This document shows, one piece after another, positions 46,377-64,000 of a DNA stretch of 64,000 nt. Both the position numbers and the translations under genes were made by a program. Numbering within the stretch: position 1 is the stretch's first letter; the number at the start of each line of letters is the position of its first letter. The DNA lies in assembly GCF_000420325.1 (NCBI RefSeq), contig NZ_ATUS01000004.1:186001-250000 (forward strand). The letters are read 5' to 3'. Source of the stretch: Spongiibacter tropicus DSM 19543. GTDB taxonomy: Bacteria; Pseudomonadota; Gammaproteobacteria; Pseudomonadales; Spongiibacteraceae. The notes below the pieces were generated by a model. It saw nothing but the letters and a program-made list of their open reading frames with translations. It was not told the origin of the DNA and searched no databases.

Positions 46377-46433
46377 ATAAAATCAATGAGTTATCGTATT
46401 TTTCCTCTTTGTGCGAACTGTCGGCATTTTTCG

Positions 46434-46453: not shown

Positions 46454-46496
46454 GGCTCTGGTTTTTCCTTTGCACCTATCAAGCTGGAGGCTCTGT

Positions 46497-47695: not shown

Positions 47696-47702
47696 TGATG
47701 TA

Positions 47703-48032: not shown

Positions 48033-48048
48033 GGTTCATTCCCTCCAC

Positions 48049-48442: not shown

Positions 48443-48446
48443 GCGG

Positions 48447-48479
48447 CGATAATACCGACAGCAAGGGCCGGTATTATCG
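48447..48479. terminator. Perfect hairpin after the XRE gene
   Basis: CGATAATACCG and CGGTATTATCG form an 11-bp stem around an 11-base loop, between the stop of the XRE gene (48494) and the toxin promoter. There is no T-run on either strand, so it may act as a factor-dependent terminator or as a regulator site. Confidence 0.4.
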
Positions 48480-48493
48480 ATCAGTAGCTAGAG

Positions 48494-49108
48494 TCAGGCG
48501 ATTTCCGCATCAAGTAATGCGGTCTCATCTTCTTCTTGATCAAGCTCCTTCAGGCCCAACGCCCCAGCAATCAGGGAGCCGGTGTACTGGCCAGTGGTTT
48601 CCATGTCGTGATACGGCATCGTATTGCAGATGGCAACCACATCCTGGCCCCGAAGTTGGCGAACAATACCGTCCTGCTGAGCTGTCAGGCAGAGCAGTTT
48701 GAAGGCGAGTTTTAGTGCCTTCTCTTTGGCGACACTTTGGAAAATGGAGCCGCGAGGCACCTCTGATGCGGCCAGCTCCTCAATTTGCAGTTGATTGTCA
48801 TAGTAGGCATCCAGCAGTTGCTCCACCTGGCTGTCGTCCAGTGCCGCAGAAATCTGGAAGCCATCGCGCATTCGGATGCCGATCGATTGCTGTTCGGCGG
48901 GCACCGAGTCGCCGGCCTCCGGGCTCCAGCCGTGTTCGCGGTAGTAGCTGTTGAGCGCTGTCAGCCAGCGATCTTCAAGAATTCGCTTGCCACTCTCAAA
49001 TTGCGAGAGATAAGCGCGGCTGATGCCGGTGTCTTTGGCGACACGGGATTGTGAAAGGTTGACAGCCGCGCGTGCTGCAACCGCCTGAGTATTGCTCAGA
49101 ATAGTCAT
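48494..49108 (-). CDS. XRE-family regulator with long C-terminal domain
   Basis: 204 residues. HTH_3 at residues 12-60 (NLSQSRVAKDTGISRAYLSQ, FESGKRILEDRWLTALN); the remaining 140 residues are helical and acidic, with QISAALDDSQVEQLLDAYYD and KLAFKLLCLTAQQDGIVRQL, ending in EEDETALLDAEIA. I know no family for the C-terminal part. It is 91 bases after the replication gene and on the same strand, so it may control copy number or induction. Confidence 0.75.
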   Translation of the reverse strand: MTILSNTQAVAARAAVNLSQSRVAKDTGISRAYLSQFESGKRILEDRWLTALNSYYREHGWSPEAGDSVPAEQQSIGIRMRDGFQISAALDDSQVEQLLDAYYDNQLQIEELAASEVPRGSIFQSVAKEKALKLAFKLLCLTAQQDGIVRQLRGQDVVAICNTMPYHDMETTGQYTGSLIAGALGLKELDQEEDETALLDAEIA

Positions 49109-49199
49109 CGTTCTTTCCTCGTTTAGGTTTTAAGTCCACCAGCCGCCGTGATTGGTGCTGGCTTCGATCTGATCCGGGAGACTCCCGGCCTCAAATGCT

Positions 49200-50930: not shown

Positions 50931-51160
50931 GGTCGAGTACTCCCCAAAATTTGGAAACTGCTATTTCCAAAAAATGAAGGGGAAGTCGGTGTAACCCATT
51001 GTTTTACATGGGGTGTTTTGGGGGGTTCCTCTGGTTTAACATGGTGAGAAACCTTGAGACATTTCCCAAAATTGGGATGGGGAAAACCGCAGCATTGCGG
51101 TTTAACACCTTGCTGAATGTCGGCCATTTCGCTAATCTTCCTGTGCTGATTGAAAGCAAT
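50931..51160. repeat. Hairpin-rich region upstream of the HUH gene, candidate origin
   Basis: Three perfect inverted repeats lie in about 150 bases: TTTGGAAA-N6-TTTCCAAA (50950-50971), TCCCAA-AA-TTGGGA (51064-51077) and AAACCGCA-GCAT-TGCGGTTT (51084-51103). Small frames on both strands cross the region but match nothing. Dense stems next to an HUH gene suggest a nick site or single-strand origin; operator function is the alternative. Confidence 0.5.
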
Positions 51161-51164
51161 ACCC

Positions 51165-51205
51165 AAAAGCCCGCAGAGCTACGCCAATAGCTGCGGGCTT
51201 TTTTT
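51165..51205. terminator. Bidirectional rho-independent terminator
   Basis: GCCCGCAG and CTGCGGGC form an 8-bp GC-rich stem, extended by AAAA/TTTT and followed by seven T on the plus strand. On the minus strand, where it directly follows the AlpA-like gene, the run is TTTTGGG. It separates that gene from the replication region. Confidence 0.85.
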
Positions 51206-51443
51206 ATGCTGTAGCGGTTTGCTGACGCTGTGTGTAGTCAGAGGTGGATGAGCAGACGCTTGCCGTTAAATACCGTTCCAGGTCACTTCGACGGTAGCGG
51301 ACGGTGCGGTGGCCCAACTTGAGGAATGGGATTCTTCCTGTGGTGTGCCGGTCGTTTCTGAGGAAGCCTTCAGAGACGCCCAATACCTGAGCGGCTTCTA
51401 CTGCGGTGAGGATTTCTGTGTTGGCTGATTCGCTGGTCTTCAT
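51204..51443 (-). CDS. AlpA/excisionase-like HTH protein
   Basis: 79 residues from the ATG at 51443 with GGAAGGGA upstream; a longer frame to 51476 has weaker signals. ILTAVEAAQVLGVSEGFLRN, then IPFLKLGHRTVRYRRSDLER, is the HTH_17 (MerR-like excisionase) domain. In P4-like elements such proteins act as excisionase or activate int. Two matched palindromes lie 63-126 bases upstream of its start. Confidence 0.85.
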   Translation of the reverse strand: MKTSESANTEILTAVEAAQVLGVSEGFLRNDRHTTGRIPFLKLGHRTVRYRRSDLERYLTASVCSSTSDYTQRQQTATA

Positions 51444-51505
51444 CTCAATGTCCCTTCCATGTTCTGGTACGGGCATTCAATCAGCGAGGAGGTTTCAGAG
51501 AAATC

Positions 51506-51569
51506 GGGTTAGCGGCGCTAACCCTAGATGATGTATTTATATCAGGGTTTAGCGACGCTAACCCCTGAT
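51506..51569. promoter_or_regulatory. Pair of matching palindromes before the AlpA-like gene
   Basis: GGGTTAGCG-G-CGCTAACCC (51506-51524) is a perfect 19-bp dyad. ATCAGGGTTTAGCG-A and CGCTAACCCCTGAT (51541-51569) repeat the same core with longer arms and one mismatch. Centres are 40 bp apart, about four helix turns. Probably a double operator or excisionase-binding site. Confidence 0.7.
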
Positions 51570-51575
51570 AAATTA

Positions 51576-52586
51576 CTAGTTGAATTTCTTTGATCTCGTT
51601 TTGAATGGGAATGGTCGATGCTCGCTGAGGCACTTTTCCTCAAGGTGTTCCCGCAGCGTGGCGTAAGTATTCTCTACGATAGAGCGGTGTTTTCTTCTGC
51701 CATTCCGCACTTTCGGCCTTAGGGATGATAGTTCTCCGTTACTTTCTTTGAGAATGGACTCGATTTCTTCTTGTCTTAAGAGCCATGGTTTAAACCCGCG
51801 ATCAATAGCGTCATTAGTACTTCTAAACCCTTTCTCTGGATTTATGTGAGGCTTGCACTCTCCAGAGTCAAAAATCCATATCCAAAACGCTTCGTCGAGC
51901 TCCTTGATTCTCTCCGGAGATACCCCTCCGGCATTGGTGCTTTGAAACTTCTTTTTGTAAGCCTCGTTGATTAACTGACTGGCTACTGGCATTGCTCTTA
52001 GTTGGCAATAGAGATCTACGATTTGTGCGAGTTGGTCTCCAAGTAATTCGGAAACCTCCTTATAGGTGGATAGCCCACTCTGCGTAGACAAGACTTTAGT
52101 CTCTTGCATTTTTAAGCCAAGAATTGACACGAAAATAATGCATGCAAGGGGTATTGCCCCATTAACCCCGGCCGCTGCTGCAAGAAGATCTGTTACGTTA
52201 TTAGACTGCTTTGATAATTTATCTTTGATTTCGTTGAATAGACTATCTCCGGCTTTCGATTTTAAAAATTCCAGAGAAACTTGGTCAATGCTGGTTGGTG
52301 CACCGTAAGATTTCAGCATCTCAACAAATTTCAGCTCACTTTGTTGCCGCGTTCCTGGCTCAAAAATTTCCTTTCCTAGCATAAGTGGCCAGAACATGGT
52401 TTGTTCAAATGTCTTCGAAACTTCACCGGATTTGATGCTGGATAACAGCATTTTCGGGAATTCGGTTTCACTCAGTTTTCGGACGGCATACTCCACAATA
52501 TCCATGAGTACGGATCTGCCGGTAACTGGAAATATTTTGTCGATATCCTCGTCCGAAATTCCATATTTTTCATAAAACTTGTTCAT
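51576..52586 (-). CDS. Unrecognised protein coupled to the integrase
   Basis: 336 residues, its ATG overlapping the integrase stop (ATGA). It is mostly helical and charged, with one hydrophobic segment around residues 132-159 (VTDLLAAAAGVNGAIPLACI and following) that could be a single membrane helix. The C-terminus is strongly basic (RPKVRNGRRKHRSIVEN, KTRSKKFN). I recognise no family. The gene is more AT-rich than its neighbours, suggesting later acquisition. The spot behind int in satellite elements often holds defence or cargo genes; that is only context. Confidence 0.65.
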   Translation of the reverse strand: MNKFYEKYGISDEDIDKIFPVTGRSVLMDIVEYAVRKLSETEFPKMLLSSIKSGEVSKTFEQTMFWPLMLGKEIFEPGTRQQSELKFVEMLKSYGAPTSIDQVSLEFLKSKAGDSLFNEIKDKLSKQSNNVTDLLAAAAGVNGAIPLACIIFVSILGLKMQETKVLSTQSGLSTYKEVSELLGDQLAQIVDLYCQLRAMPVASQLINEAYKKKFQSTNAGGVSPERIKELDEAFWIWIFDSGECKPHINPEKGFRSTNDAIDRGFKPWLLRQEEIESILKESNGELSSLRPKVRNGRRKHRSIVENTYATLREHLEEKCLSEHRPFPFKTRSKKFN

Positions 52587-53797
52587 GCCTCTTCCTCTGA
52601 GCGATGAGTGTCCTTGCTGTTTTTTAGTATGAATTCCGCGACTTTTTCCATAGGCTGCCTCAGCCGGTTGGTGTCGGCGACTATATAACCAGCAGTGACA
52701 TCATTGGCGTTTCGGTGGTTAAGCATCTGTTTTAGCGCGTATGCCGGTATGTCTAGGCTCTCCGCGATGGTGATGAATGTTCGTCTCAAATCATGGAGTC
52801 TCAGCGGTTTTCCCATGCTCACGGAGACTTGCGTCACGGCATTTCTTGGCTCTTTTAGGGGGCCATCGTGTAATGGGCTGGGGAACACCCACTTACCGCA
52901 GTTGAACCTCTTTCTGTGCTTGAGCATGTTGAGCAGGTAGTCGGGCAAGGGAAGGGTATGCGGCTCCCCGTTTTTGGTGTCTGGTATCGAAAATGTACGA
53001 TCATCAAAGCAAACATGGCTCCACTGGAGATTGGCCGCTTCGGTCTTGCGTAGGCCGGTAAAGAGCAGGAATCTGAGGTAGTCCCGCGTCACATCATATG
53101 TCAGCGCCTCTGTGGCAGCGAAAAAGGCAGATAGCTCATGCGGTTTTAGCAGCGTGCGGCGACGCTCAGATGGATACCAAGCGCGACTTTTGCTTAGGCG
53201 GTCAACGGGGTTAACGGAAATAATGGGCTGTCCTTTTTCATCCTCGTATTTTGCCATTGAGTGATTAAATATTGCCCGGAGAACACGCATAGCGTTATTC
53301 GCACGAGCTGGCGCCCTGGAGCCGATCTCCGAATGGCGCTTCTCTACCATGTCTTTGCTGATGTCTATCAGTCGCTTGGGCTTCCAATCAGCAAAACAAC
53401 CATCAACACATTTTCTATAGTTCCCGATAGTGCCTGGTTTCAGATCCTTTCGTACGGCTAAGTAATCCTCAAACGCGTCGCTGAAGCTGATGGATTTAGC
53501 ATGAGCGGCTCGCTTTTCCGTCATAGGGTCTTTGCCTACAGCAATGGTGCCAAGCATCTCTTGGGCTCGGATTCGCGCCTGAGTAGGGGTTAGATGGCCA
53601 TACCGGCCTATCGACATCCGTTTAACCCGGCCATTGACCCTGCGTTCCACGAAGAATGACTTCGTGCCGCCACTGCCCACGAGCAGGCCAAACCCCAGTA
53701 GTGAATCATCGCGGTATATAACTTGAGCGGCTTTCCCGTCTGCCTTTCTGGGTGGAATCGGTAGGCGGTCGATATAGGATTTTGTTAGCTTGGCCAA
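52583..53797 (-). CDS. int: P4-type tyrosine integrase of the satellite-like element
   Basis: 404 residues: DUF4102 arm-binding domain (GFGLLVGSGGTKSFFVERRV, KRMSIGRYGHLTPTQARIRA), SAM-like core-binding domain, and catalytic residues Arg in LFTGLRKTEAANLQW, HDLRRTFITIA (HxxR), and LNHRNANDVTAGYIV with Tyr. Transcribed from the att side inward. It overlaps the following unknown gene by 4 bases. 53798-54043 upstream holds the promoter and repeat sites. Confidence 0.95.
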   Translation of the reverse strand: MAKLTKSYIDRLPIPPRKADGKAAQVIYRDDSLLGFGLLVGSGGTKSFFVERRVNGRVKRMSIGRYGHLTPTQARIRAQEMLGTIAVGKDPMTEKRAAHAKSISFSDAFEDYLAVRKDLKPGTIGNYRKCVDGCFADWKPKRLIDISKDMVEKRHSEIGSRAPARANNAMRVLRAIFNHSMAKYEDEKGQPIISVNPVDRLSKSRAWYPSERRRTLLKPHELSAFFAATEALTYDVTRDYLRFLLFTGLRKTEAANLQWSHVCFDDRTFSIPDTKNGEPHTLPLPDYLLNMLKHRKRFNCGKWVFPSPLHDGPLKEPRNAVTQVSVSMGKPLRLHDLRRTFITIAESLDIPAYALKQMLNHRNANDVTAGYIVADTNRLRQPMEKVAEFILKNSKDTHRSEEEA

Positions 53798-53892
53798 TAG
53801 TCTTTGGACTCCGTAATAGACCCGAAATAGACATGGCCTCCGAAAATGCCACTTTTTGAGATGAATATCTCCAAATTCGTCTATTTCAGAAA

Positions 53893-53912
53893 ATAGTAGA
53901 CGTATAGTAGAC
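53893..53912 (+). repeat. Candidate integrase arm site, right end
   Basis: ATAGTAGACGTATAGTAGAC, two ATAGTAGAC units with an 11-bp period, one base different from 46434-46453. Two shorter ATAGAC copies with the same period lie at 53816-53821 and 53827-53832, nearer the integrase start. Confidence 0.65.
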
Positions 53913-54043
53913 AGTTTTTGATGATTTATACATACTATCCTGACGAATGGCGCGTAACAAAAAACGCTAAAAATCTTTTAACATGCTGAAATAAGAGGAT
54001 TTAATATGGAATGGGTAAGTAATGAGATTTTACATTCGAAATC

Positions 54044-54099
54044 CTTAAAATCTCCCGACTATTGCAGTCGTGCCGGTTCGATTCCGGCCTCGGGCACCA
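54044..54099 (+). repeat. Attachment site: tRNA-Leu(UAA) 3' half, copy 2
   Basis: Identical over 56 bases to 46321-46376. It again lacks a matching 5' half (preceding AATCC does not pair with TCTCC of the anticodon stem). It marks the junction of the satellite-like element with the chromosomal flank to the right. Confidence 0.93.
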
Positions 54100-54416
54100 T
54101 TGATACCGCTGCTAAAAAGCCTTGTTGCGTCTGTTTGGTACGATGTGACTCATTACGTGTCTGTCGTAACGACGTGTGCGATCACGTCGTCTAATCCTGC
54201 GCGATGAGGCAGGTGAGTTTAGTTAGCCTATCCTTTTAGCCCGGCGGTGGTCGACACCCTACGATACTGACGCCACGATGCTGTCGTGCCCTGAAGACTG
54301 ACTCTACATATCGCTTTAGCATGATCATTACGTTTTACATCCAGTCGATATCAATTCAGTCCCGATTCAGTCTTTGCACTCAATACTGCAAGCCTGTTTC
54401 TTTCAGGAGCTTTGCC
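54100..54416. other. Intergenic region at the chromosomal junction
   Basis: 317 bases without a credible gene. A perfect stem ACGACGTG-N6-CACGTCGT (54169-54190) may be the former terminator of the tRNA transcript, though it has no T-run. The promoter of the outer-membrane protein gene should lie near its right end. Confidence 0.5.
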
Positions 54417-55073
54417 ATGAAATATTCTGTGTTGTCGGCGTCTGCCTTGGTTCTGGCCTTATCCGTTCCCACCGCACAGGCGTCGCCTTATCGCAGTTCG
54501 TCACCCAGCATGTATGTGTTTGGCGGCGTGGGAATGTCGGATTTCAGCTGGCAGGAACGAGACGTTCGCTATAGCTTTGGCGACGGCAGCTTGAGTGATG
54601 TTGAGGTCGATGAACAGTCGAGTGCCGCGCGGATTGGTTTTGGCTTGCCGGTGGGCGAAAGCCTCGCCTTTGAAATGGGCTATGTAAACCTGGGTGATCT
54701 GACTGCGTCTGGGTTTTCTGATGGTAGTCAGGTGCTAAATAACGGTTACAGTGCGGGCCGGGTTGATATAGACGGGAGCCTCGATGCGCTGTTTATCGGT
54801 CTGCGGCTGCAGACGCCAGCCAAAGAGCCGATTGGCCTGTACGCAAGAATGGGTATTGCTGCCTGGGAGTTTGATGGACGGGTTGAGGACAGCAGTCGAC
54901 GCGGTGAGTTTCTGGTCGAGGGCAGTGATCCTTATCTGGGGGCCGGGATGCGTCTGGCGGTCGCTCGCAACGCCGATATTCAGGTGGGATATGACTACTA
55001 CGTGTTCGACGATGATCGCAGTATCGATATGTCCGCAGATGTCGTCTCGGTGGATTTCGTTCTGCGATTCTAA
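54417..55073 (+). CDS. Outer-membrane beta-barrel protein (OmpA/OmpX-like fold)
   Basis: 218 residues from ATG 54417 with CAGGAG 7 bases upstream; the longer frame is rejected because the start opens directly into a signal peptide (MKYSVLSASALVLALSVPTA, then QA). Eight amphipathic strands are suggested (MYVFGGVGMSDFSWQERDVR, ARIGFGLPVGESLAFEMGYV, DIQVGYDYYVFDD), ending VVSVDFVLRF with terminal Phe. No peptidoglycan-binding domain. Function unknown. First gene to the right of the mobile elements. Confidence 0.8.
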   Translation: MKYSVLSASALVLALSVPTAQASPYRSSSPSMYVFGGVGMSDFSWQERDVRYSFGDGSLSDVEVDEQSSAARIGFGLPVGESLAFEMGYVNLGDLTASGFSDGSQVLNNGYSAGRVDIDGSLDALFIGLRLQTPAKEPIGLYARMGIAAWEFDGRVEDSSRRGEFLVEGSDPYLGAGMRLAVARNADIQVGYDYYVFDDDRSIDMSADVVSVDFVLRF

Positions 55074-55094
55074 GCGCGCTTCCGCCGGGAAAGT

Positions 55095-55430
55095 CTACAG
55101 CAGGCGCTTTTTATAGCTCTCAGCGTGCATGTCGATGATTTCCACGCTGAGGCTGTAAACCTCCGGGAGGTGCTCGACCAGCACGGCACGAAGGGTTTCG
55201 GCCAGCTGCCGTTTTTGCGGGTCGCTGCGTCCTTCCAGCAGGCGCACACTCAGGTGCACAAACTGCTGGCCGGGGACGGCAAGTTGATACTGTGTGTAGG
55301 GCAGAGCGCGTAATTTAAGGTCTTCGGCCCGCACGATGCCGGTGCTTGCCGCAGCGTCGGCGGCGCTCGACATCAATGCGGGCAAGCGGGCCTCCAGTGC
55401 CGCAGAGTGTTCAAAAATAAGATGGGGCAT
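55095..55430 (-). CDS. 5-carboxymethyl-2-hydroxymuconate isomerase-like protein (CHMI)
   Basis: 111 residues of the tautomerase superfamily, starting MPHLIFEHSAALEA with the catalytic Pro2 that becomes N-terminal. LRALPYTQYQLAVPGQQFVH and IIDMHAESYKK fit CHMI (HpaF). In homoprotocatechuate degradation CHMI isomerises a ring-cleavage product; here it is the third gene after a Rieske oxygenase and a ligase, so it may act on a related product. It is 17 bases after the ligase gene. Confidence 0.88.
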   Translation of the reverse strand: MPHLIFEHSAALEARLPALMSSAADAAASTGIVRAEDLKLRALPYTQYQLAVPGQQFVHLSVRLLEGRSDPQKRQLAETLRAVLVEHLPEVYSLSVEIIDMHAESYKKRLL

Positions 55431-55447
55431 GAGGCCTCCGTGACGGT

Positions 55448-56899
55448 TTAGAACATTTCAAAATATTCTTTCTGCTCCCAGTCCGTCACTTCGCTGAGGA
55501 AGCGATCCAGTTCAGCCTGTTTGATCGTGGCGTAATAATTCACGAAGTTGTCGCCAAACTGCTCTCGATAAAAAGCACTTTCCTGAAAGTACAGCAGCGC
55601 CTGAAACAGGCTGCGAGGCAGTCGCTGTGCCGTGGAGTTATAGGGTTCCTCAACCGGTGCGGGCAGGGGATAACGCTGGTGAATTCCTGCCAGCCCCGAC
55701 AATACCTGTGAGGCAATATAGAGATAGGGGTTTGCCGCGGGTTCGCCGACACGGTTTTCGATGCGCGTTGCCGGGTCGCCCATGCCGCCGAGTACCCGCA
55801 ACATGGCGCCCTTGTTGTCGCGGCCCCATTGAATGCGATCGGGTGCGAGAGTCTGGGGGCGATAACGCTTGTAGGCGTTGATAGTGGGTGCGGCCAGAAT
55901 GCAGGAGGCGGAGGCGTGCTCAAGGAGACCGGATAAATAGGCCTTGCCGATGTCAGACAGGCAGTCGTCCGGGGTGTCGGGAATAAAGGCATTTTTGCCC
56001 GTTTTGCTGTCGATCAGGCTTTGGTGCAAATGCCAGCCGCTGGCAAAGGTGTTGGGAATATGCGGTCGACACATAAAGGTGGCGTGGTAGCCCAGTCGGG
56101 CGCAGACCTGCTTGATGGCACTGCGCGCCAGCACCGCACTGTCGGCGGTGGCCAAGCCCCGCTGTGGGCTGAACGTCAGCTCAAGCTGACTGGGACCAAA
56201 TTCGATTTCCTCTGAGCGCAGCGGCAGTTTCAGTGCCAGCAATGCCCGGCGAATTTCCCGGAATAGAGGTTCCAGCTCGTCGTAGCGAATTTCCGTGAGG
56301 TATTGATAACCCCGTTGCAGGGGAACCACCGACGGTGGAGTGCCGGGTTGCGTGCAGTCGTGAGCGGTCAGCGCGGTGTCCACGTTGCGAAACAGGTGGA
56401 ATTCCATTTCCAGACCGCTCATCAGCTCAAGGCCCTCGCCAGCCAGCTTACTCAGCGCACTGCGCAGACAGCGGCGAGTATCGTATTCCACTGGCTGGCC
56501 GTCGGGATAATACAGGTCGCAAAGAATCCAACCGGTATCGGGGGCCCAGGGCAGGCGACGAAATGTGCTGGGGTCGGCCACCATGATCAGGTCGGCAGCG
56601 CCGGCCAGCTTCTGGGTACCCATACCCGCGCCCGATTGCCACACTGGCATGGCGGTGCGGTGCGAGGTGTCCTTCAGAATCAGCGTGGAGGTCATGGTGC
56701 AGCCATTGACCAGTGTGCTGCCGATGGCATCGCCAATAATGGTTTTGCCACGGGTCAGACCGTGTTGATCGGCAAAAACAAAGCGCAGGACTTCAATATT
56801 GTCGGCCTGAATTCGGGCAACGACATCTTCCGCCTGGGCGATCTGGTCGCTGTTCCAGAGTCCGTGCCGGTCTACAAAACTGCCTGAGAGGGGAAGCAT
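55448..56899 (-). CDS. Glutamine synthetase-like ligase (gamma-glutamyl-amine type)
   Basis: 483 residues from the ATG at 56899 with GAGGAG 8 bases upstream; an ATG at 56914 overlapping the previous stop is possible. GS beta-grasp (VLRFVFADQHGLTRGKTI) and catalytic domain: SGLEMEFHLF, EFGPSQLELTF, RPHIPNTFASGWHLHQSL, NAYKRYRPQTLAPDRIQWGR and TRIENRVGEPAANPYLYIAS. This GS-III-like/PuuA group attaches glutamate to amines such as polyamines, isopropylamine or aniline. Pairing with a Rieske oxygenase recalls aniline degradation, where a glutamylanilide is the oxygenase substrate. Confidence 0.88.
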   Translation of the reverse strand: MLPLSGSFVDRHGLWNSDQIAQAEDVVARIQADNIEVLRFVFADQHGLTRGKTIIGDAIGSTLVNGCTMTSTLILKDTSHRTAMPVWQSGAGMGTQKLAGAADLIMVADPSTFRRLPWAPDTGWILCDLYYPDGQPVEYDTRRCLRSALSKLAGEGLELMSGLEMEFHLFRNVDTALTAHDCTQPGTPPSVVPLQRGYQYLTEIRYDELEPLFREIRRALLALKLPLRSEEIEFGPSQLELTFSPQRGLATADSAVLARSAIKQVCARLGYHATFMCRPHIPNTFASGWHLHQSLIDSKTGKNAFIPDTPDDCLSDIGKAYLSGLLEHASASCILAAPTINAYKRYRPQTLAPDRIQWGRDNKGAMLRVLGGMGDPATRIENRVGEPAANPYLYIASQVLSGLAGIHQRYPLPAPVEEPYNSTAQRLPRSLFQALLYFQESAFYREQFGDNFVNYYATIKQAELDRFLSEVTDWEQKEYFEMF

Positions 56900-56910
56900 A
56901 GTGGTGCTCC

Positions 56911-58230
56911 TCATTCTTGCCAGGGATCGTCAGCCCAGCCGGATTGCTGGCGGCGTTTCAAATCGCGTTCTTTCCAACAGTTCTGCCAGTCGTCGGCGGG
57001 GCCAATTTCATCAATGGCAACGGGGCCGCGAATCCGGGTCACATCGCTGCTCATCGGCAGGGCATCCTGGCTGTCGGCCTCGGCGGCGTCCATCGCTTTG
57101 AAGAGCATTCGCCGGTAGCGCATGATGCCGATATCTGAGCGCATCAACTGGTGCTTGCTGCGATCGGCGATGGGGCCGGGGGATTCCACCGCCCACTGGT
57201 CGTGAACATTGATGTCGTCACCCATGCCGGTATAGGTTTTATCGCGCTGTTCATCAGGGTTGTAGCCCCACTGGTTTTGCGGGCCGTATTTTGGCTTGTA
57301 ATCGGGTGGGGGGTTCATATCGATACGCTGGGCGCGCATCAGCTCCTTGTTCACCGGTTTGCCAAAACTGATAAACATCGAATACCAATAGCAGGATTCG
57401 TCATCGACCGGCACATGCCATTGGGCAATGACCATCTCGTTGCTCATTGGAATGACGATTGCATTCGGAAACAGCAGATTAGTGACCCGTACATGGGTGC
57501 TTTCCTCGGAGATTTCCCTGAGGGTTAGCAGACGAATCCCGAAGTCGGTTTCTTCTGCCCGGATTTCGGGGCAGTCAAACTCGCGCAGTACCTTGGTCAG
57601 CGGCATGCTGCTGTCGGCAGCTTCGTCGCGGAACTGGCGGCCGTAGGCCTCGTCCAGTGAGTCGTCGGCCAAAAAACGGTGCAAGAACGAGGCGTGAACG
57701 GGGTCGATGCCCACTTCCAGCGCCTGCAACCAGTTGCAGTACCACAGACCTTTGTAGGCAAAGACATGGCTGTCGGGGGCGGTGAAACAGTCCAGTGCGG
57801 GAAACGCGGGGGGCTCACCGTCGCCCAGATACGCGAAAATCACGCCGTTGCGCTCTTCGCAGGGGTAGGAGGGGTGTTTGACCAGTGTGTGCGTGTTTGA
57901 ACCGGCGGGTTGTGCCGGTTGCTCAAGGCAGTGACCCTTGCCGTCGAACAGCCAGCCGTGGAAGGGACAGCGCAGGCCATCTGCTTCCAGTCGGCCGTAA
58001 GACAGGTCGACACCGCGATGGGGGCAGAAACGCCCGGAGAGCCGGTATTCGCCGTCGGCGGCCTTGAACAGTACCAGTTGCTCGTTCATCAGGGTGACCG
58101 CTTTTACGGGGCGTTCGCTGTCGAGTTCTTCGGTGAGCGCCACGGGCTGCCAGTAACTGCGCAGCACCTTACCGGCAGCGGTTTCGGGGCCGGTTTCGGT
58201 AAGGCGGATATTCTCTTCGGGAGTCAGCAT
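56911..58230 (-). CDS. Rieske-type ring-hydroxylating oxygenase, alpha subunit
   Basis: 439 residues from the ATG at 58230; a start at 58266 would place the operator inside the gene. Rieske 2Fe-2S ligands CPHRG and CPFHGW (Cys69, His71, Cys88, His91), then the mononuclear iron site EVGIDPVHASFLHRF with two His. The layout follows the phthalate 4,5-dioxygenase/vanillate demethylase group, which hydroxylates aromatic rings or removes alkyl groups. No reductase gene is in the window. First gene of the minus-strand catabolic operon. Confidence 0.9.
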   Translation of the reverse strand: MLTPEENIRLTETGPETAAGKVLRSYWQPVALTEELDSERPVKAVTLMNEQLVLFKAADGEYRLSGRFCPHRGVDLSYGRLEADGLRCPFHGWLFDGKGHCLEQPAQPAGSNTHTLVKHPSYPCEERNGVIFAYLGDGEPPAFPALDCFTAPDSHVFAYKGLWYCNWLQALEVGIDPVHASFLHRFLADDSLDEAYGRQFRDEAADSSMPLTKVLREFDCPEIRAEETDFGIRLLTLREISEESTHVRVTNLLFPNAIVIPMSNEMVIAQWHVPVDDESCYWYSMFISFGKPVNKELMRAQRIDMNPPPDYKPKYGPQNQWGYNPDEQRDKTYTGMGDDINVHDQWAVESPGPIADRSKHQLMRSDIGIMRYRRMLFKAMDAAEADSQDALPMSSDVTRIRGPVAIDEIGPADDWQNCWKERDLKRRQQSGWADDPWQE

Positions 58231-58240
58231 GTCATTAATC

Positions 58241-58264
58241 CGAACATAAGTTTGAAATACGAAC
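58241..58264. promoter_or_regulatory. Candidate IclR-type operator before the Rieske gene
   Basis: CGAACATAAGT, 4 variable bases, AATACGAAC. The same 24-bp arrangement with only the four variable bases changed is at 61877-61900. It sits 11 bases upstream of the Rieske start and 115 upstream of the iclR start. Confidence 0.75.
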
Positions 58265-58378
58265 ATTGCCGAGTATAGGGACTGCCGCGCCGCGGCGCAA
58301 CAAGCAAGTTAGCGCTATCTGCCATATAGGATGTTTCGGGGCTTTGATGTAGTATGCGGACAATTGTTTAAATAGCGC

Positions 58379-59179
58379 ATGAGGGAACAAGCCTTGCCAG
58401 CCAATAAAAACGGAGATAACGAAAAGTCCAAGGACTTGGTGGGATCCTTGATTCACGGCCTGGGCGTGATCATGGCCTTTGATGCTGAAGACCCCGAGAT
58501 GACCCTGTCGCAAGTGGCAGAGAAAACCGGCATGAACCGGGCGGGAGCGCGGCGTTATCTGCTCACCCTGGCGCATTTGGGGTTCATTCATCAGGACGAC
58601 CGGATTTTTCGCCTGACACCCAAGGTGATGGAGCTCGGTTATTCCTATCTGTCCACTGTGCCGATCAGTTCCATTGCTCAGCCGTACCTCGACACCATTC
58701 GCGATATCACCGGTGAAGCGGTTGCTGTCGGCATTATCGACGGTGAGGATGTGGTTCATATTGCCAAGGCCAACTCCAAACGACTGATGGCGCCAACGCT
58801 GACGATCGGCAAACGCTTTCCCGTGATTTATGCCTCGGCCGGACGTGCCATGTTGGCGTTGAAACCCGACGCGGAGCGCGACGCGATTCTCGACAAGGCG
58901 GACTTTACGCCGCTGACCGACAAAAGCATTACCTCCCGTGAGGAGCTGGACAAAGAACTGGCCAAAATCCGCCGTCAGGGCTATGCACTGGTCGAGCAGG
59001 AAATCGAGCTGGGGGCGCGTTCACTGGCGGTCCCGGTCTACAACCAGGCCGGTGAAGTAGTGGCCGGCATCAATACCCTGACCAACGCCGCCATCGTCAG
59101 CAAAAAGCAGCTGGTGGATGAGTGCCTGCCAGTGATGTGGGATGCTGCGCAGGAAATCAAACGCGCCCTTGTTTCCTGA
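58379..59179 (+). CDS. IclR-family transcriptional regulator (PcaR-like)
   Basis: 266 residues. N-terminal winged HTH (MTLSQVAEKTGMNRAGARRY, LLTLAHLGFIHQDDRIFRL) and a C-terminal GAF-like effector domain (GEAVAVGIIDGEDVVHIAKA, RFPVIYASAGRAMLA, YALVEQEIELGARSLAVPVY) resembling PcaR/PcaU/PobR proteins that sense aromatic acids. Divergent from the Rieske operon. The nearby CGAACAT motifs are its likely sites. Not followed by a terminator I can see. Confidence 0.92.
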   Translation: MREQALPANKNGDNEKSKDLVGSLIHGLGVIMAFDAEDPEMTLSQVAEKTGMNRAGARRYLLTLAHLGFIHQDDRIFRLTPKVMELGYSYLSTVPISSIAQPYLDTIRDITGEAVAVGIIDGEDVVHIAKANSKRLMAPTLTIGKRFPVIYASAGRAMLALKPDAERDAILDKADFTPLTDKSITSREELDKELAKIRRQGYALVEQEIELGARSLAVPVYNQAGEVVAGINTLTNAAIVSKKQLVDECLPVMWDAAQEIKRALVS

Positions 59180-59271
59180 TGCCATGCGGGCCACTTTCGT
59201 GGCCCGTTTCATTGCTGAGGGCTGGAAAGCCCGCCAAGCAACACCTCGATAAAAGCCTCTTGTTTAATTTG

Positions 59272-59285
59272 CGAACATGTGTTCG
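59272..59285. promoter_or_regulatory. Candidate IclR-type operator before ridA
   Basis: CGAACA-TG-TGTTCG is a perfect dyad, followed by TAT, so that both strands read the half-sites GCGAACAT and ATACGAAC seen at the other two sites. It lies 36 bases before the ridA start. Confidence 0.7.
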
Positions 59286-59320
59286 TATAAAAAACAATTG
59301 TTTTTTGTATTGAGGTTGTC

Positions 59321-59698
59321 ATGAACGTTATTCACACCGAGCTGGCCCCCCAGGCGATTGGTCCTTATTCCCAGGCGATTGCCGTGAACGGCCTGGTTTT
59401 CGTCTCTGGGCAGATTCCCCTTGATCCTGCCAGCGGTGAGCTGCGGGAAGCTGATATTCACGTCCAGACAACGCAGGTATTCGAAAACCTGAAGGCGGTA
59501 CTGGATGCGGCGGGCAGCGATTTTTCCAAGATCGTTAAGCTGTCGATTTTTATGGTGGATCTTGCCGACTTCGCCATCGTGAACAGCATTATGAGTGAGT
59601 ACTTTACCGAGCCTTATCCGGCGCGTGCCTGTGTACAGGTGGCGGCCCTGCCCAAAGGGGCAATGGTCGAAGTCGAAGCGGTGGCAATTTCCGCATAA
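59321..59698 (+). CDS. RidA-family enamine/imine deaminase
   Basis: 125 residues, full length. [20 protein letters not shown] and the C-terminal [20 protein letters not shown] carry the conserved Arg (PARACVQV) and Glu of active RidA members, which hydrolyse reactive enamines or imines to ketoacids and ammonia. In a catabolic cluster RidA-like enzymes often perform a pathway deamination (as RutC in uracil use). Begins the RidA-permease-MBL operon. Confidence 0.92.
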
Positions 59699-59710
59699 GA
59701 GGACGGTGGC

Positions 59711-60514
59711 ATGATAGAACTTGCGTTGCTGATGGCCGTGTCGGGGCTCTTTGCGGGTGTGCTGAGTGGTCTGTTTGGCGTAGGGGGTGGCATTATTCTG
59801 GTGCCGGTGCTGGACTACGCACTCGGGTTTACCGAACTGAACCCGGTTTACCGTATGCATGTCGCCGTTGCCACATCACTGGCTGTGGTGATGTTTACCA
59901 CTTTTTCCTCGGCCTATGCCCACTACAAAAAGGGCTCGGCGGACCTGGCGCTGGTCAAGCGATGGGGCCTGTTTATCATGCTTGGCTCCCTGCTGGGGAT
60001 CGCTGCGGCGACGGTGAGCTCGAGCCAGTTTCTTTCCATCCTGTTTGGTGTGCTAACGCTGTTGGTGGCCCTGAAAATGCTGCTGCCAATGTCGGAGTGG
60101 CGCCTTGCCAACGCGGTGCCGACATCGCGCTTGTCTTACCTGATTCCCGCGGCGATTGGCGGCTTTTCAAGCATGATGGGTATTGGTGGTGGAACACTGG
60201 GTGTACCGACCTTGAACTTGCTTAACTTCCCCATGCAGCGTGCCGTGGGAACGGCGGCAGGGTTTGGCGTATTGATCAGTATTCCCGGCAGCATCGGTTA
60301 CATTGTGTCGGGATGGTCTGTTCAGGCGCTGCCGAGCGGCTATCTGGGGTATATCAACTTGATTGGTCTGGCGCTGGTGGCGCCGCTCGCGGTGGTGATG
60401 GCGCCCTTTGGCGCGCGTCTGGCACACCGCCTGTCGGCCAGACAGCTGCAACAGTTGTTTGGCGGTTTTTTGTTCCTCGTCGCAGCGAGAATGTTCATCA
60501 AGGTGCTGATGTGA
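59711..60514 (+). CDS. TauE/SafE (TSUP) family membrane permease
   Basis: 267 residues, about eight TM helices, with the duplicated glycine-rich motif GVLSGLFGVGGGIILVPVLD and later GGFSSMMGIGGGTLGVPTLN. TSUP members transport sulfonates, sulfite or other organic anions. Substrate unknown; position suggests uptake or export of a pathway compound. The stop overlaps the next ATG by one base. Confidence 0.88.
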   Translation: MIELALLMAVSGLFAGVLSGLFGVGGGIILVPVLDYALGFTELNPVYRMHVAVATSLAVVMFTTFSSAYAHYKKGSADLALVKRWGLFIMLGSLLGIAAATVSSSQFLSILFGVLTLLVALKMLLPMSEWRLANAVPTSRLSYLIPAAIGGFSSMMGIGGGTLGVPTLNLLNFPMQRAVGTAAGFGVLISIPGSIGYIVSGWSVQALPSGYLGYINLIGLALVAPLAVVMAPFGARLAHRLSARQLQQLFGGFLFLVAARMFIKVLM

Positions 60515-61812
60515 TGCGTGGCAGCATGCAGGTTGTGGGGCAGGCGCTGGTTGCCTGTGTTTTTGCGGGGGCATTGCTGCTGCTCAGTGAGAGCCTGCAG
60601 GCGGGAGAAAAATCGCCATTGAATCGCTTGCGGCCGCTGGATTCCCGTCCTGAACTGGATTCCGGTCAGGCACTCGGGCGAGCCTGTGTACCGGGCGAAA
60701 CCGTGGTCATGCGCGAGAATGTCGGTAAAGACAGCAGCTACTGGCGAGGGCTTCATCGCGGCCAGTTTGTTGTCTGCACGGGCAATAGCCGAAACGGCGA
60801 GTTACTGGTGGCCGACGGCCCCGGCCGCGTCTGGCAGTTGTCGCGTACGCAGGTCAATGCGACGCGCTTTTTTCCGGCTGAGTGGACGGCCTACGATCGG
60901 GATTATCTGGTTTGGGCCTACGATAGAAATACGCTGATTTTCCGAGAGAGTCTGGCCAATAGTTTCGAAGGTAACTTCTTTTACCTGCTGCTGGACGACG
61001 ATGGGGAAGGGCGACTCAACGGGGCCTTGCTGATTGATTCAGGCACGGGCTACGCCAATCTTCGCCCCTACATTGCGCCCCTGATTGGCAGCTCGCCGTT
61101 GACGGTCGTCAATACTCACAGTCACTGGGATCACTTCGGTGGCAATCGCGACTTACAGTCGCTGCCCAATGTCCGCTTTTATGGCTATCAACCGGATGGC
61201 CGCTATGAGCCGTTTCCCCAATATCCCCGGTACAGCGTCGATGCCCTGTTCGACGGCGAAGAGGAGTCCGTCCACCGTGAGCTAGGCATTGGCAAGCGGC
61301 GGGTAACAGCGCTGAAAATTCCCGGCCATACGGGAGACTCGATAGCCCTGTATGACGCCCGCGAACAGTTGCTGTTTACCAGCGATACCGTTTGTCCCTG
61401 TCTGCTGTTCATCGAAGACTGGTCGGCCTATTTACAGAGTGCGGCACTGCTCAAGCGCTTTGTGGCGGAGAACCCGGTCAAATGGCTGCTGGGCGGCCAT
61501 CTTGAAATGTCGCGGCCCAAGGCGGACAACCGCCAGCACGAGTATTTTTATTTCGGCAGCAACAGCCATCGCGATGAGCACGCCTTGCAGCTTCCGCTGT
61601 CGTATCTGGCGCTGGCCGAGCGCGAGGTCAAACGGGTGCTTGCCGACGCCGATGATCAGGGGCCGCGTTACGATGCGCGGCGCATTGATAAACCGTTTCA
61701 CGACGTGCCGATGGTGCCCGTGCCATTCCCCGGCATTCCCTCCTATTACCGGGACGATGCCAATCGTCTTGTCGATATTCTCCGCCAGCGCCACGCCAGC
61801 GACGAGCGCTGA
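60514..61812 (+). CDS. Secreted metallo-beta-lactamase-fold hydrolase
   Basis: 432 residues from ATG 60514 (TGATG overlap with the permease gene). Signal-like N-terminus (ALVACVFAGALLLLSESLQA). A family-specific N-terminal domain of about 150 residues precedes an MBL domain with HSHWDH (His202, His204, Asp206, His207), later HTGDS, FTSDTV and GGHLEM, the usual di-zinc ligands. The substrate is unknown; lactone, ester or amide hydrolysis in the periplasm is possible. Last gene of the operon. Confidence 0.85.
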   Translation: MRGSMQVVGQALVACVFAGALLLLSESLQAGEKSPLNRLRPLDSRPELDSGQALGRACVPGETVVMRENVGKDSSYWRGLHRGQFVVCTGNSRNGELLVADGPGRVWQLSRTQVNATRFFPAEWTAYDRDYLVWAYDRNTLIFRESLANSFEGNFFYLLLDDDGEGRLNGALLIDSGTGYANLRPYIAPLIGSSPLTVVNTHSHWDHFGGNRDLQSLPNVRFYGYQPDGRYEPFPQYPRYSVDALFDGEEESVHRELGIGKRRVTALKIPGHTGDSIALYDAREQLLFTSDTVCPCLLFIEDWSAYLQSAALLKRFVAENPVKWLLGGHLEMSRPKADNRQHEYFYFGSNSHRDEHALQLPLSYLALAEREVKRVLADADDQGPRYDARRIDKPFHDVPMVPVPFPGIPSYYRDDANRLVDILRQRHASDER

Positions 61813-61876
61813 TACGAGCGTGTGCAATCTGCTGGCATTGTCATGTGGATACGCGTCGAAGTCGTGTTGCTTATTG

Positions 61877-61900
61877 CGAACATAAGTGCATAATACGAAC
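61877..61900. promoter_or_regulatory. Candidate IclR-type operator before carbamate kinase
   Basis: CGAACATAAGT, four bases, AATACGAAC: same motif as 58241-58264, in the same strand sense, 49 bases before the arcC-like start. Confidence 0.75.
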
Positions 61901-61948
61901 TTAATCCTTGTTGAAGTGTTCACGCAGTTCCGTGGACCGGGAGAGTAT

Positions 61949-62866
61949 ATGAAGTTGTTAGTTGCACTGGGCGGAAACGCGCTACTGAAGCGGGGAGAAT
62001 TTCCCAGCACATCGTCTCAGCGGGAAAATACGCGTATGGCCGCCCGTGCCTTGGAAAAGATCGCGCGCGAACACCAGTTGATTCTCAGTCATGGTAATGG
62101 CCCGCAAGTGGGTCTGCTGGCAATGCAAGCCGAGTGCTACGCGGGAGCAGAGGCCTATCCCTTTGATGTGATGTGTGCCGCGACTGCCGGCATGATTGGC
62201 TACATGATCGAGCAGGAGCTGGGCAATCTGCTGGGCTACGACGTGCCCATTGCTACGCTGCTGACCCGGGTGGCCGTGGACCCCGACGATCCCGAGTTCA
62301 GTGCGCCTACCAAGTTTGTCGGTACCGCTGTGGATGATGATGAAGCCGAGACGCTGAGCAACGCCCATGGCTGGCAGTTTCGTCGCGACGGCGACAAGCT
62401 GCGTCGCGTTGTGCCGTCACCAACACCACAGCGCATCATCTGGCACCGTCCCATTCGCTGGCTGTTGGATAATCACGCGGTTGTGATCTGTGCCGGCGGC
62501 GGTGGCATTCCTGTCGTGCATAATACCGAGGATGACAGTTACCGCGGCGTGGAGGCTGTGATTGATAAAGATCGTGCCTCCGGCCTGCTGGCCAGTGAGA
62601 TTCCTTCCGATATGTTTGTGATTGCCACCGATGTCGATGGCGTTTATCTCGATTACGGCACCGATCGCCAACGGGTGCTGCGGCGCACTACGCCTGCCGA
62701 ACTGGACGCGCTGAATTTTTCCAGTGGCTCTATGGGGCCGAAAGTGGATGCTGCCTGCCTGTTTGTAAGGCGCACCGGCAAACCGGCGGTGATCGGCTCG
62801 CTGGATCATATTGCCGACATCGTGGCCGGAACCAGTGGTACCTGGATCGAGCCCGATGCCGACTGA
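61949..62866 (+). CDS. arcC: Carbamate kinase-like enzyme
   Basis: 305 residues from ATG 61949 with GGGAGAG upstream. Amino-acid kinase fold: MKLLVALGGNALLKRGEFPS, LILSHGNGPQVGLLAMQAEC, CAGGGGIPVV, VIDKDRASGLLASEIPSDMF and FSSGSMGPKVDAACLFVRRT match ArcC/AllK. It makes ATP from carbamoyl phosphate. No ArcA or ArcB is present, so it probably ends a catabolic route that yields carbamoyl phosphate. It overlaps the DUF2877 gene by 11 bases. Confidence 0.92.
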   Translation: MKLLVALGGNALLKRGEFPSTSSQRENTRMAARALEKIAREHQLILSHGNGPQVGLLAMQAECYAGAEAYPFDVMCAATAGMIGYMIEQELGNLLGYDVPIATLLTRVAVDPDDPEFSAPTKFVGTAVDDDEAETLSNAHGWQFRRDGDKLRRVVPSPTPQRIIWHRPIRWLLDNHAVVICAGGGGIPVVHNTEDDSYRGVEAVIDKDRASGLLASEIPSDMFVIATDVDGVYLDYGTDRQRVLRRTTPAELDALNFSSGSMGPKVDAACLFVRRTGKPAVIGSLDHIADIVAGTSGTWIEPDAD

Positions 62867-63734
62867 AGGCTTGCCACTGCGCATTCGTAGCCTCGGTGAC
62901 CTGGCGCATCGCCAACTGGCCGAGCCAGGCATTCGCCTTCAGGTCGCCGCAGTTTTCGACCGCGTGGTGTATCTCAGTTGCGAGCCGCGCGATGCGGTCG
63001 TCGATTTCCCGCACCCGGGAATGGTAGTGCTTAGCCATCCGGATATTCCACCGGGCCCCTTGAATATCACCTTGAATCGCTGGCCGGACTGGTCTGCGCT
63101 TGCCGTGCATGATCGGGTGCAGAGCGATTCTCATGCACTGAATTTGTGCGGTCATCAATTGGTGCATGCCGGGCTGCCATTGTGGGGCTCTTGCCCGGAT
63201 TGGCAGAGCCTGCCGCCCATCGGTGGTCTCGCGGACGCACTGCACGTCGGCGTGTCAGAGTGCGAACACAGCTCGGCGTTTTTGGCGCTGCTTTATGGCA
63301 GCGAAACGCTGTCGACGTCCCGGTTGGGGAGAACACTGGACCGGCTGGGTGAGGGGCTGTTCGCCTCAGACGAGCGGCTGGTAAGGCAGGGCGCCGAAGA
63401 GCTGGCGGGCTTGGGCAGGGGGCTCACTCCCGCTGGGGATGACTTTCTCTGCGGGCTGATGGTGGCACTGTGGTATCGCGGTCTGGCCGCTCAAACGCCG
63501 GTTTGCAACTGGCTGTACTCCTCCGCAGCACCGCGTACTACGCGGTTGTCGGCCGCGTTTCTGAGCTGTGCGTCCGTTGGCGCCCTCAATCAGAGCTGGC
63601 TGGACTTTGTTCAGTGGCTGCCCGATTTTAGTGCAGAGCACTTGTCGGGCAAACTCGCACCGCTACTGGCAGTGGGACATAGCTCGGGGGCCGATATGCT
63701 GGCGGGCTTTGCCTGGGGGCTAAAGCCCGCGTAA
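62856..63734 (+). CDS. DUF2877 protein (AllH-like)
   Basis: 292 residues from ATG 62856, overlapping arcC. The family signatures LAGLGRGLTPAGDDFLCGLM and LLAVGHSSGADMLAGFAWGL are clear. DUF2877 includes AllH, reported as part of the oxamate carbamoyltransferase AllFGH that feeds carbamoyl phosphate to carbamate kinase in allantoin degradation. AllF/FdrA and AllG partners are not in the window, so the exact reaction here is open. Confidence 0.85.
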   Translation: MPTEGLPLRIRSLGDLAHRQLAEPGIRLQVAAVFDRVVYLSCEPRDAVVDFPHPGMVVLSHPDIPPGPLNITLNRWPDWSALAVHDRVQSDSHALNLCGHQLVHAGLPLWGSCPDWQSLPPIGGLADALHVGVSECEHSSAFLALLYGSETLSTSRLGRTLDRLGEGLFASDERLVRQGAEELAGLGRGLTPAGDDFLCGLMVALWYRGLAAQTPVCNWLYSSAAPRTTRLSAAFLSCASVGALNQSWLDFVQWLPDFSAEHLSGKLAPLLAVGHSSGADMLAGFAWGLKPA

Positions 63735-63738
63735 ACGT

Positions 63739-64000
63739 TTATTGGCCGCAGTAGTCGGCAATCGCCGCGTCGACGGCGGCTTGTGCGCAGGCCTCATCAA
63801 GGTCGGCGCTGGCGCCTCCCACGCCCACCGCCCCCAGCAGTTTCCCATTAAAGAGAATCGGCAAGGCCCCTCGGGCATAAATCATATTTCCGCCTTCCAG
63901 TTCGGCGATGCGCTGCATTACCACGGATTCCGGCGGAATCGCGCCGCTTGGGCAGCGTGTGGCAGCGGCGGTCAGGGCTTTCCCCTGGCTGCCGTAGATG
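63739..64000 (-). CDS. HbpS/GlcG-family protein, 5'-truncated by window
   Basis: About 87 C-terminal residues; the frame is open to the window edge. IPPESVVMQRIAELEGGNMI, GALPILFNGKLLGAVGVGGA and DEACAQAAVDAAI are typical of the HbpS/GlcG (DUF336) family, small proteins found beside many catabolic genes; some bind haem or cobalamin precursors. It converges on the DUF2877 gene. Function in this pathway unknown. Confidence 0.85.
   Translation of the reverse strand, partial: IYGSQGKALTAAATRCPSGAIPPESVVMQRIAELEGGNMIYARGALPILFNGKLLGAVGVGGASADLDEACAQAAVDAAIADYCGQ

Follow-up and report, generated by a model that had tools for sequence, protein, structure and literature searches.

The left end of a putative catabolic gene island begins at position 55095 of the Spongiibacter tropicus DSM 19543 DNA analysed here (the window; 64,000 nucleotides, C4:186001-250000 of a 3.95 Mb genome in 7 contigs), and the island extends ~26 kb beyond the window end. 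It spans C4:241095 to about C4:276370 (window-equivalent 55095 to about 90370), ~4 times the length of the stretch 55095-63734, and holds 29 genes as counted. We consider it probable that these ~29 genes constitute one acquired island, mostly under one PcaR/PcaU-like IclR regulator, that dismantles a single nitrogen-rich compound. The substrate is best read as an anionic amino-(hetero)aromatic compound that would lose some of its nitrogen as a ureide, to be processed by the carbamoyltransferase AllFGH and a carbamate kinase.

The stretch 55095-63734 contains nine genes, all real open reading frames (ORFs); a first-pass annotation of the window had named the same nine, and their positions and Pfam domains agree with its descriptions. 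Overlaps and short gaps between genes define three likely transcription units around the IclR gene: Rieske oxygenase, glutamyl-amine ligase, and CHMI-like tautomerase on the minus strand (4-base overlap, 17-base gap); RidA deaminase, TSUP transporter, and metallo-beta-lactamase-fold (MBL) hydrolase on the plus strand (12-base gap, 1-base overlap); and carbamate kinase and AllH on the plus strand (11-base overlap). The Rieske gene probably starts at ATG 58230, not at 58266, which places the operator-like motif upstream of the gene, and the likely AllH start, at 62856, makes this gene overlap the end of the carbamate kinase gene. An HbpS/GlcG-like gene spans the window end. Beyond it lie genes for a peptide-type binding protein, a pair of permeases, a TRZ/ATZ-type amidohydrolase, another binding protein, AllF, two AllG proteins, and a pair of ABC ATPases; the permeases and ATPases were identified by visual inspection of the sequence. 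The next block encodes an aldehyde dehydrogenase (ALDH), a PF04199 cyclase-family hydrolase, a GGT-family hydrolase, a PALP-family pyridoxal phosphate (PLP) enzyme, a class III aminotransferase, and a DAO-family flavin adenine dinucleotide (FAD) oxidase; after a gap come a TonB-dependent receptor, a SnoaL-like lipoprotein, and an Amidohydro_3 lipoprotein. In the second binding protein (window-equivalent 69273-70814), in contrast to the first, neither a signal peptide nor a lipobox is visible; it may be a cytoplasmic sensor or carrier.

A shared operator-like motif joins these transcription units. The pattern GCGAACATNNGTNCRTA has exactly three exact matches in the genome, at C4:245271, C4:247876, and C4:263317, all inside the island and ahead of RidA, carbamate kinase, and ALDH, respectively; the promoter at C4:250192 (HbpS/first binding protein) carries it with 2 mismatches. 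At up to 2 mismatches genome-wide, a reversed control pattern gives 28 matches versus 19 for the real pattern, and therefore only exact or promoter-placed matches count. Because the pattern had been composed after the ALDH site was seen, we added a matrix test with the two window sites as the only input, scanning 148,646 bases on both strands. The ALDH and HbpS/first-binding-protein promoters rank third and fourth, directly after the two input sites; rank 5 falls within an ORF, on a stretch of C1 included on account of that site, and rank 6 is the Rieske/IclR region, with a score of 14.8. The motif is present at five promoter regions of the island, and for two of these the window sites were sufficient to predict it, which bears out the regulator motif that the first-pass annotation had described as shared. 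An operator overlapping the −10 box is plausible, since the motif runs into a TATAAT-like stretch. The IclR protein scores 281.5 bits against TIGR02431 (PcaR/PcaU/PobR), just below the cut-off of 284.75, and most island genes are probably under this one PcaR/PcaU-like regulator. The shared motif, together with co-occurrence of the genes in a second genome, makes it less likely that the operons are expressed under unrelated conditions.

That second genome is distant: a Marinicaulis metagenome-assembled genome (MAG) carries 19 of the 29 island genes, at 32-78% identity, on three contigs of 26.8, 3.9, and 4.5 kb. The 26.8 kb contig encodes relatives of the MBL hydrolase (53%), ALDH (56%), ligase (69%), IclR protein (57%), SnoaL-like protein (41%), Amidohydro_3 protein (48%), Rieske oxygenase (59%), class III aminotransferase (71%), FAD oxidase (78%), amidohydrolase (38%), HbpS-like protein (50%), and AllH (32%). 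The two small contigs encode AllF-AllG-AllG (55/67/62%) and cyclase-GGT-PLP enzyme-carbamate kinase (61/50/54/63%). In particular, the IclR gene is divergent from the ligase gene, and the carbamate kinase gene directly follows the PLP-enzyme gene, an adjacency that ties steps 3 and 4 of the pathway proposed below. Additional genes include, between ALDH and ligase, an aspartate-carbamoyltransferase-like gene (239.8 bits, over the cut-off of 236.95) and a class V aminotransferase-like gene under cut-off, and, adjoining the MBL gene, an acyl-CoA-ligase-like gene. In a tree, the ligases of the two genomes group together (support 1.0). Each AllG gene has its own counterpart in the other genome, and these pairs are more alike than the tandem paralogues of S. 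tropicus, which are 53% identical; the duplication is therefore probably older than the split.

Across overlapping samples of 369, 398, and 249 genomes, the Marinicaulis MAG is the only genome besides the source genome with an FAD oxidase match above 70%. Relatives of this oxidase at ~50% identity were set aside as a different group; they adjoin, by eye, dimethylglycine-dehydrogenase-like or trimethylamine-methyltransferase-like genes at loci L107, L110, and L111, not at L108 and L109. None of 17 congeners has AllG (one of these genomes is 84% complete), and the 8 listed for the Rieske gene lack it at E 1e-60, on which grounds the island was probably acquired horizontally.

The best PDB match of the ligase is 8wwu (NpaA1), at 417 bits versus 174 for the next, and the ligase keeps the equivalents of the catalytic pair NpaA1 Glu232/Glu234, lending support to the earlier proposal that an amine would be glutamylated and then oxygenated as in aniline use. 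An excerpt of PMC11335346 names the amine-tunnel residues of NpaA1 and gives Tyr as the AtdA1 equivalent of Val201; in our alignment, the island ligase also has Tyr at this position, and has Lys, Thr, Trp, and Phe in place of NpaA1 Phe75, Met81, Phe86, and Trp235. Alignment of 81 relatives from the loci collected (>44% identity, >90% coverage) reveals Lys at ligase position 81, the NpaA1 Phe75 position, in 80 (X in the remaining one), Arg or Lys at position 86 in 75, and Thr87 in all 81. The three aniline-type ligases (pLME1, YBL2, NpaA1) have F/V/F, T/G/S, and F/F/M at positions 81, 86, and 87, respectively. Asp82 is invariant among the relatives and is present in the aniline-type ligases as well, and so is not part of the difference between the two groups. 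From the replacement of aniline-type tunnel residues by Lys81, Arg/Lys86, and Thr87, we infer that the substrate of the ligase is a charged, probably carboxylated, aromatic amine.

The ligase gene is a regular partner of the oxygenase gene. The Rieske protein has CxH-CxxH at residue 69 and DPVHASFLH at residue 176, and matches PDB entries 9ina (215 bits), 7fjl (176 bits), and 7fhr (putative phthalate 4,5-dioxygenase; 169 bits). A search with it returned at least 594 matching stretches, 589 of them encoding a relative, and the best 80 loci were studied. At 75 of the 80, a ligase-like gene is no more than 6 kb away from the Rieske gene; at four of the other five, the contig ends ≤270 bases from the Rieske gene, and L044 has no ligase despite 2.2 kb of downstream sequence. 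Within the same distance, ferredoxin genes occur at 16 loci, FAD reductase at 13, IclR at 24, and CHMI at 5, and genes resembling a glutamine amidotransferase (GATase) at 1 or 3, depending on the query. The order Rieske-ligase-CHMI recurs at L024, L034, and L063 and, at 28% identity, at L079; in Pseudooceanicola p111, ligase-CHMI is accompanied by a TRAP transporter, IclR, and a different Rieske gene. Annotated plasmid examples have the order Rieske-ligase-ferredoxin-reductase-ABC transporter, and others have nitroreductase and DUF4863 genes nearby, neighbours that we take to be linked to nitrobenzoate. Neighbours named by eye include benzoate-CoA-ligase-like genes at 7 loci and intradiol-dioxygenase-like genes at 4. 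On plasmid 1 of Polaromonas JS666 (L102), an annotated CBASS oligonucleotide cyclase and its neighbours lie a few kb from the Rieske-ligase operon.

The ureide module is represented by all three AllFGH subunits: AllF (FdrA subfamily, 493 bits versus a cut-off of 433), two AllG proteins encoded in tandem (PF06545, 264 and 252 bits), and AllH. In E. coli, AllF, AllG, and AllH are oxamic transcarbamylase, according to an excerpt of PMC11326118. The AllF and AllG genes had been predicted before the sequence beyond the window was read, and their presence there argues for the proposed recovery of a carbamoyl group as ATP. The carbamate kinase falls narrowly under the cut-off of the arcC equivalog (353.4 bits versus 358.25). 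In a sample of 378 genomes, AllF is present in 11 including the source genome; at each of the 10 AllF loci read, out of 14 others, AllF is accompanied by one AllG and by a carbamate kinase at 37-46% identity, and four have an isochorismatase-like hydrolase (by eye). No GGT, cyclase, PLP-enzyme, FAD oxidase, class III aminotransferase, Rieske, or ligase match at E 1e-8 is present in these 10 loci, and plasmid searches with the FAD oxidase, AllF, and cyclase gave no second island among the matches listed. On Aminobacter sp. SR38 plasmid pSR8 (L122), one block holds fdrA, DUF1116, ring-opening amidohydrolase, arcC, amidohydrolase, BMP-type ABC transporter, and DUF2877 genes; AllFGH there apparently serves another ureide, perhaps a triazine-derived one. 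In nitrifiers, AllFGH clusters sit with biuret and triuret genes, according to an excerpt of PMC12625717.

The GGT-family protein matches PDB 5hft at 144.9 and 109.6 bits over chains A and B and 2e0w at 159.3 bits; we take these entries to be HpxW and E. coli GGT, respectively. Entries 2nlz (230.5 bits) and 2i3o (226.1 bits) are each matched in one stretch, so that 5hft need not be the nearest relative and action of this protein on oxamate is a lead only.

Together, these modules suggest the following route, in which gene content, motif, and recurrence in Marinicaulis are observed and the chemistry of each step is inferred. The substrate would be taken up by the TonB receptor and the peptide-type ABC transporter and trimmed by the exported MBL and Amidohydro_3 hydrolases (step 1); the MBL hydrolase, given its hydrophobic N-terminus, is probably exported. 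The GoaS-type ligase would glutamylate an anionic aromatic or heteroaromatic amine (step 2a), and the Rieske enzyme would dioxygenate the amide, with departure of the amine and transfer of the unstable product to the CHMI-like tautomerase (step 2b). The TRZ/ATZ-type amidohydrolase would deaminate an N-C-N ring that hydrolases of the cyclase family would open to a ureide (step 3a); AllF-AllG-AllG-AllH would phosphorolyse the ureide to carbamoyl phosphate, from which carbamate kinase would make ATP (step 3b); and the GGT/HpxW-family hydrolase would cut an oxamate-like product (step 3c). The carbon remnant would pass through the FAD oxidase, aminotransferase, ALDH, and PLP enzyme, with RidA clearing an enamine (step 4) and TSUP potentially exporting an anionic product. 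The roles given to TSUP, MBL, and CHMI are guesses. The first-pass annotation had read the stretch 55095-63734 as glutamylation and oxidation, then isomerisation and deamination, then recovery of ATP; its first and last parts find support, its order of steps is incomplete for an island of this length, and deamination by the downstream amidohydrolase and PLP enzyme is at least as likely as deamination by RidA.

A narrower version, which we hold tentatively and with more doubt than confidence, is a new aerobic pathway for a substrate joining an anionic amino-aromatic part to a 2-amino-N-heterocycle, such as a folate, pterin, flavin-like compound, or 2-aminoimidazole alkaloid. The amine would come off by glutamylation and single-component Rieske oxygenation, the heterocycle would be deaminated and opened to a ureide or oxamate, and a carbamoyltransferase with two different AllG subunits would phosphorolyse the carbamoyl group to yield ATP. 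For folate, cleavage of the C9-N10 bond would fall to the FAD oxidase and ALDH, and the amidohydrolase would act as a pterin deaminase; the folate case is weakened in that the island has no recognised p-aminobenzoyl-glutamate hydrolase.

Several observations weigh against one pathway for the whole island. The single-pathway reading names no substrate. AllF, the first AllG, AllH, carbamate kinase, cyclase, the CuyA-like PLP enzyme, MBL, and TSUP are found within 6 kb of the Rieske gene at none of the 80 loci, and FAD oxidase, class III aminotransferase, and amidohydrolase genes only at L015; the Rieske-ligase pair therefore usually works without the rest. Motif scans reveal no motif before the TonB, SnoaL, and Amidohydro_3 genes, leaving their regulon membership unsupported. 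Of the partner genes to be looked for downstream of position 64000, AllF and two AllG genes are present, but no ring-cleavage dioxygenase or reductase, nor a ferredoxin, is recognised among the island ORFs. Genome-wide, the intradiol dioxygenase family PF00775 has no match, and the two LigB-family genes score 118.5 of 290 and 158.8 of 233 bits, under the NCBIfam cut-offs shown, with VOC-type extradiol enzymes unsearched. In Marinicaulis, CHMI, RidA, TSUP, the six ABC-transporter genes, and the TonB receptor (10 of the 29) go unmatched at E 1e-3 across the stretches examined, the rest of the MAG being unsearched for these; nothing similar to the motif appears there in a motif scan; and the amidohydrolase and AllH are weakly alike between the two genomes. 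The MAG is fragmented, and its island contigs have a GC content of 0.52-0.55 versus 0.56-0.57 in three other stretches, so that misbinning is possible.

The island might instead combine two functions under one broad regulator, an aminobenzoate-type route and a ureide route acting on different substrates and gathered by transfer. The wide occurrence of the Rieske-ligase pair without ureide genes suits this explanation, as do the aromatic-acid-like neighbours of the pair elsewhere (nitroreductase and DUF4863; by eye, benzoate-CoA-ligase-like and intradiol-dioxygenase-like genes). We nevertheless judge it unlikely: one operator-like motif covers both gene groups, both groups co-occur again in Marinicaulis with a ligase of the same clade, and no ring-cleavage partner for an aminobenzoate-type route is recognised in the window genome. 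A simpler form, in which 4-aminobenzoate or another aminobenzoate is converted to protocatechuate and the remaining genes are accessory, would account for the phthalate-dioxygenase-like oxygenase, the basic residues of the ligase tunnel, and the PcaU-like regulator. A further contig of the Marinicaulis MAG encodes protocatechuate 4,5-dioxygenase subunits and 4-hydroxybenzoate 3-monooxygenase that exceed their cut-offs, which keeps the idea alive there. In the window genome, the PF00775 and LigB-family results lead us to reject a protocatechuate route, within the limits of that search; with AllFGH, carbamate kinase, amidohydrolase, PLP enzyme, and FAD oxidase left unexplained as well, the proposal is improbable. 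The same genome contains, at C1:1182000-1196000 (L128), a cluster resembling a carbazole-type meta-cleavage set, with a homotrimeric-type Rieske oxygenase (PF11723, 244 bits), a class III extradiol-like gene and, by eye, a hydrolase, a hydratase, a GGT-like gene, and a TonB receptor.

A Puu-like polyamine or alkylamine route would assign ligase, FAD oxidase, ALDH, GGT, and aminotransferase to the roles of PuuA, PuuB, PuuC, a PuuD substitute, and PuuE, and all five enzyme classes are in the island. The ligase, whose nearest relative is an aromatic-amine ligase, scores 224 bits against gamma-glutamylputrescine synthetase (cut-off 650), ALDH scores 249 bits versus a PuuC cut-off of 850, and the Rieske partner and ureide genes would be left without roles; we therefore reject this route, which we regard as highly improbable. 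A sulfonate reading, with a CuyA-like PLP enzyme and TSUP as sulfite exporter, also stays weak: the PLP enzyme scores 281.9 bits against NCBIfam CuyA (D-cysteate sulfo-lyase), under the cut-off of 450, and shares only the PLP superfamily with it.

Table 1. Genes and operator-like sites of the island within the window.
Feature	Position	Strand	Evidence
CHMI/tautomerase-family protein, 111 aa, last in Rieske operon	55095..55430	-	PF02962 52 bits
GoaS-type glutamyl-amine ligase (glutamine-synthetase-like), 488 aa	55448..56914	-	Gln-synt_C 267 bits; KDTSHRT at residues 81-87
Rieske oxygenase, single-component phthalate-dioxygenase-like, 439 aa	56911..58230	-	Rieske 72 + LigXa_C 78 bits
Operator-like site, divergent Rieske/IclR promoters	58240..58268		two CGAACAT repeats
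IclR-family regulator close to PcaR/PcaU/PobR	58379..59179	+	IclR_C 132 bits
Operator-like motif GCGAACATGTGTTCGTA ahead of RidA	59271..59287	+	exact match
RidA enamine/imine deaminase	59321..59698	+	Ribonuc_L-PSP 150 bits; TIGR00004 178.8 vs cut-off 106; RACVQV motif
TSUP/TauE-family transporter	59711..60514	+	PF01925 175 bits
MBL-fold hydrolase	60514..61812	+	PF00753 70 bits; HSHWDH metal motif
Operator-like motif GCGAACATAAGTGCATA ahead of carbamate kinase	61876..61892	+	exact match
Catabolic carbamate kinase	61949..62866	+	AA_kinase 74 bits; NCBIfam PRK12354 430.9 vs cut-off 361
AllH, third subunit of oxamate carbamoyltransferase	62856..63734	+	PF11392 86.5 bits
HbpS/GlcG-like gene, divergent from ABC-AllFG operon	63739..64000, continuing to window-equivalent 64188	-	PF03928 99.8 bits

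The stretch just left of the island (window 49200-53797) looks like a small integrated element. It encodes a phage replication gene A protein (49200-50930; PF05840, 261 bits), a small helix-turn-helix protein (51204-51476), and a phage integrase with an arm-binding domain (52583-53797, minus strand); GC content is 0.46-0.49 at 51-54 kb, and no tRNA is present in window 45000-64000. To the right, ~9 kb past the FAD oxidase gene (C4:280292-283035), lies a molybdenum-hydroxylase pair that could hydroxylate an N-heterocycle; a distant relation of subunits of xanthine dehydrogenase and aldehyde oxidoreductase, it reaches none of the cut-offs and lacks the shared motif.

The island provides a testable gene set for a catabolic route without a match in the literature searched. 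The first-pass annotation knew of no described pathway with this gene set, and we find none matching in open-licence literature, which leaves out most subscription journals; searches there on 4-aminobenzoate glutamylation and pterin catabolism also gave nothing on this gene set. The widespread ligase-oxygenase pair follows the strategy of aniline use with other components. Should the substrate be found, many annotations of "glutamine synthetase family protein" and "ring-hydroxylating dioxygenase" would gain a function, and the AllFGH carbamoyltransferase would be shown to serve ureides beyond allantoin-derived oxalurate. The Lys81/Arg86 loop is a candidate sequence marker for ligases of charged aromatic amines.

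Comparison with known systems places each module close to, but apart from, a described counterpart. As in the aniline and 1-naphthylamine systems (AtdA1-5, TdnQTA1A2B, NpaA1-A5), a GoaS-kind ligase, 46% identical to the pLME1 ligase and 43% to the YBL2 and NpaA1 ligases, is linked to a Rieske oxygenase. Unlike in those systems, the oxygenase is single-component and phthalate-dioxygenase-like, no beta subunit, reductase, or glutamine-amidotransferase-like enzyme (AtdA2/TdnT) is recognised among the island ORFs, and the ligase tunnel has Lys81 and Arg86 versus Phe75 and Ser80 in NpaA1. As in the oxalurate branch of E. coli allantoin catabolism (AllFGH and AllK), three carbamoyltransferase subunits accompany a catabolic carbamate kinase; unlike in that branch, there are two tandem AllG genes, and no allantoinase, allantoate hydrolase, or ureidoglycolate genes are recognised among the island ORFs and in domain scans. 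The GGT-family protein recalls the Klebsiella oxamate amidohydrolase HpxW through its match to 5hft. The reductive urate pathway of anaerobes comprises XdhD, YgfK, SsnA, HyuA, YgeW, YgeY, YgeX, and YqeA in an excerpt of PMC12507026; relative to the pathway as given there, the island has in common a TRZ/ATZ-type amidohydrolase, a carbamoyltransferase, a carbamate kinase, and a PALP-family enzyme, and differs in having an oxygenase for YgfK/XdhD, AllFGH for YgeW, and no recognised HyuA or YgeY. Each module is a variant of something known, whereas the combination, the tandem AllG genes, and the ligase subfamily seem to be new, so far as the literature searched shows, and the whole set is perhaps a new pathway.

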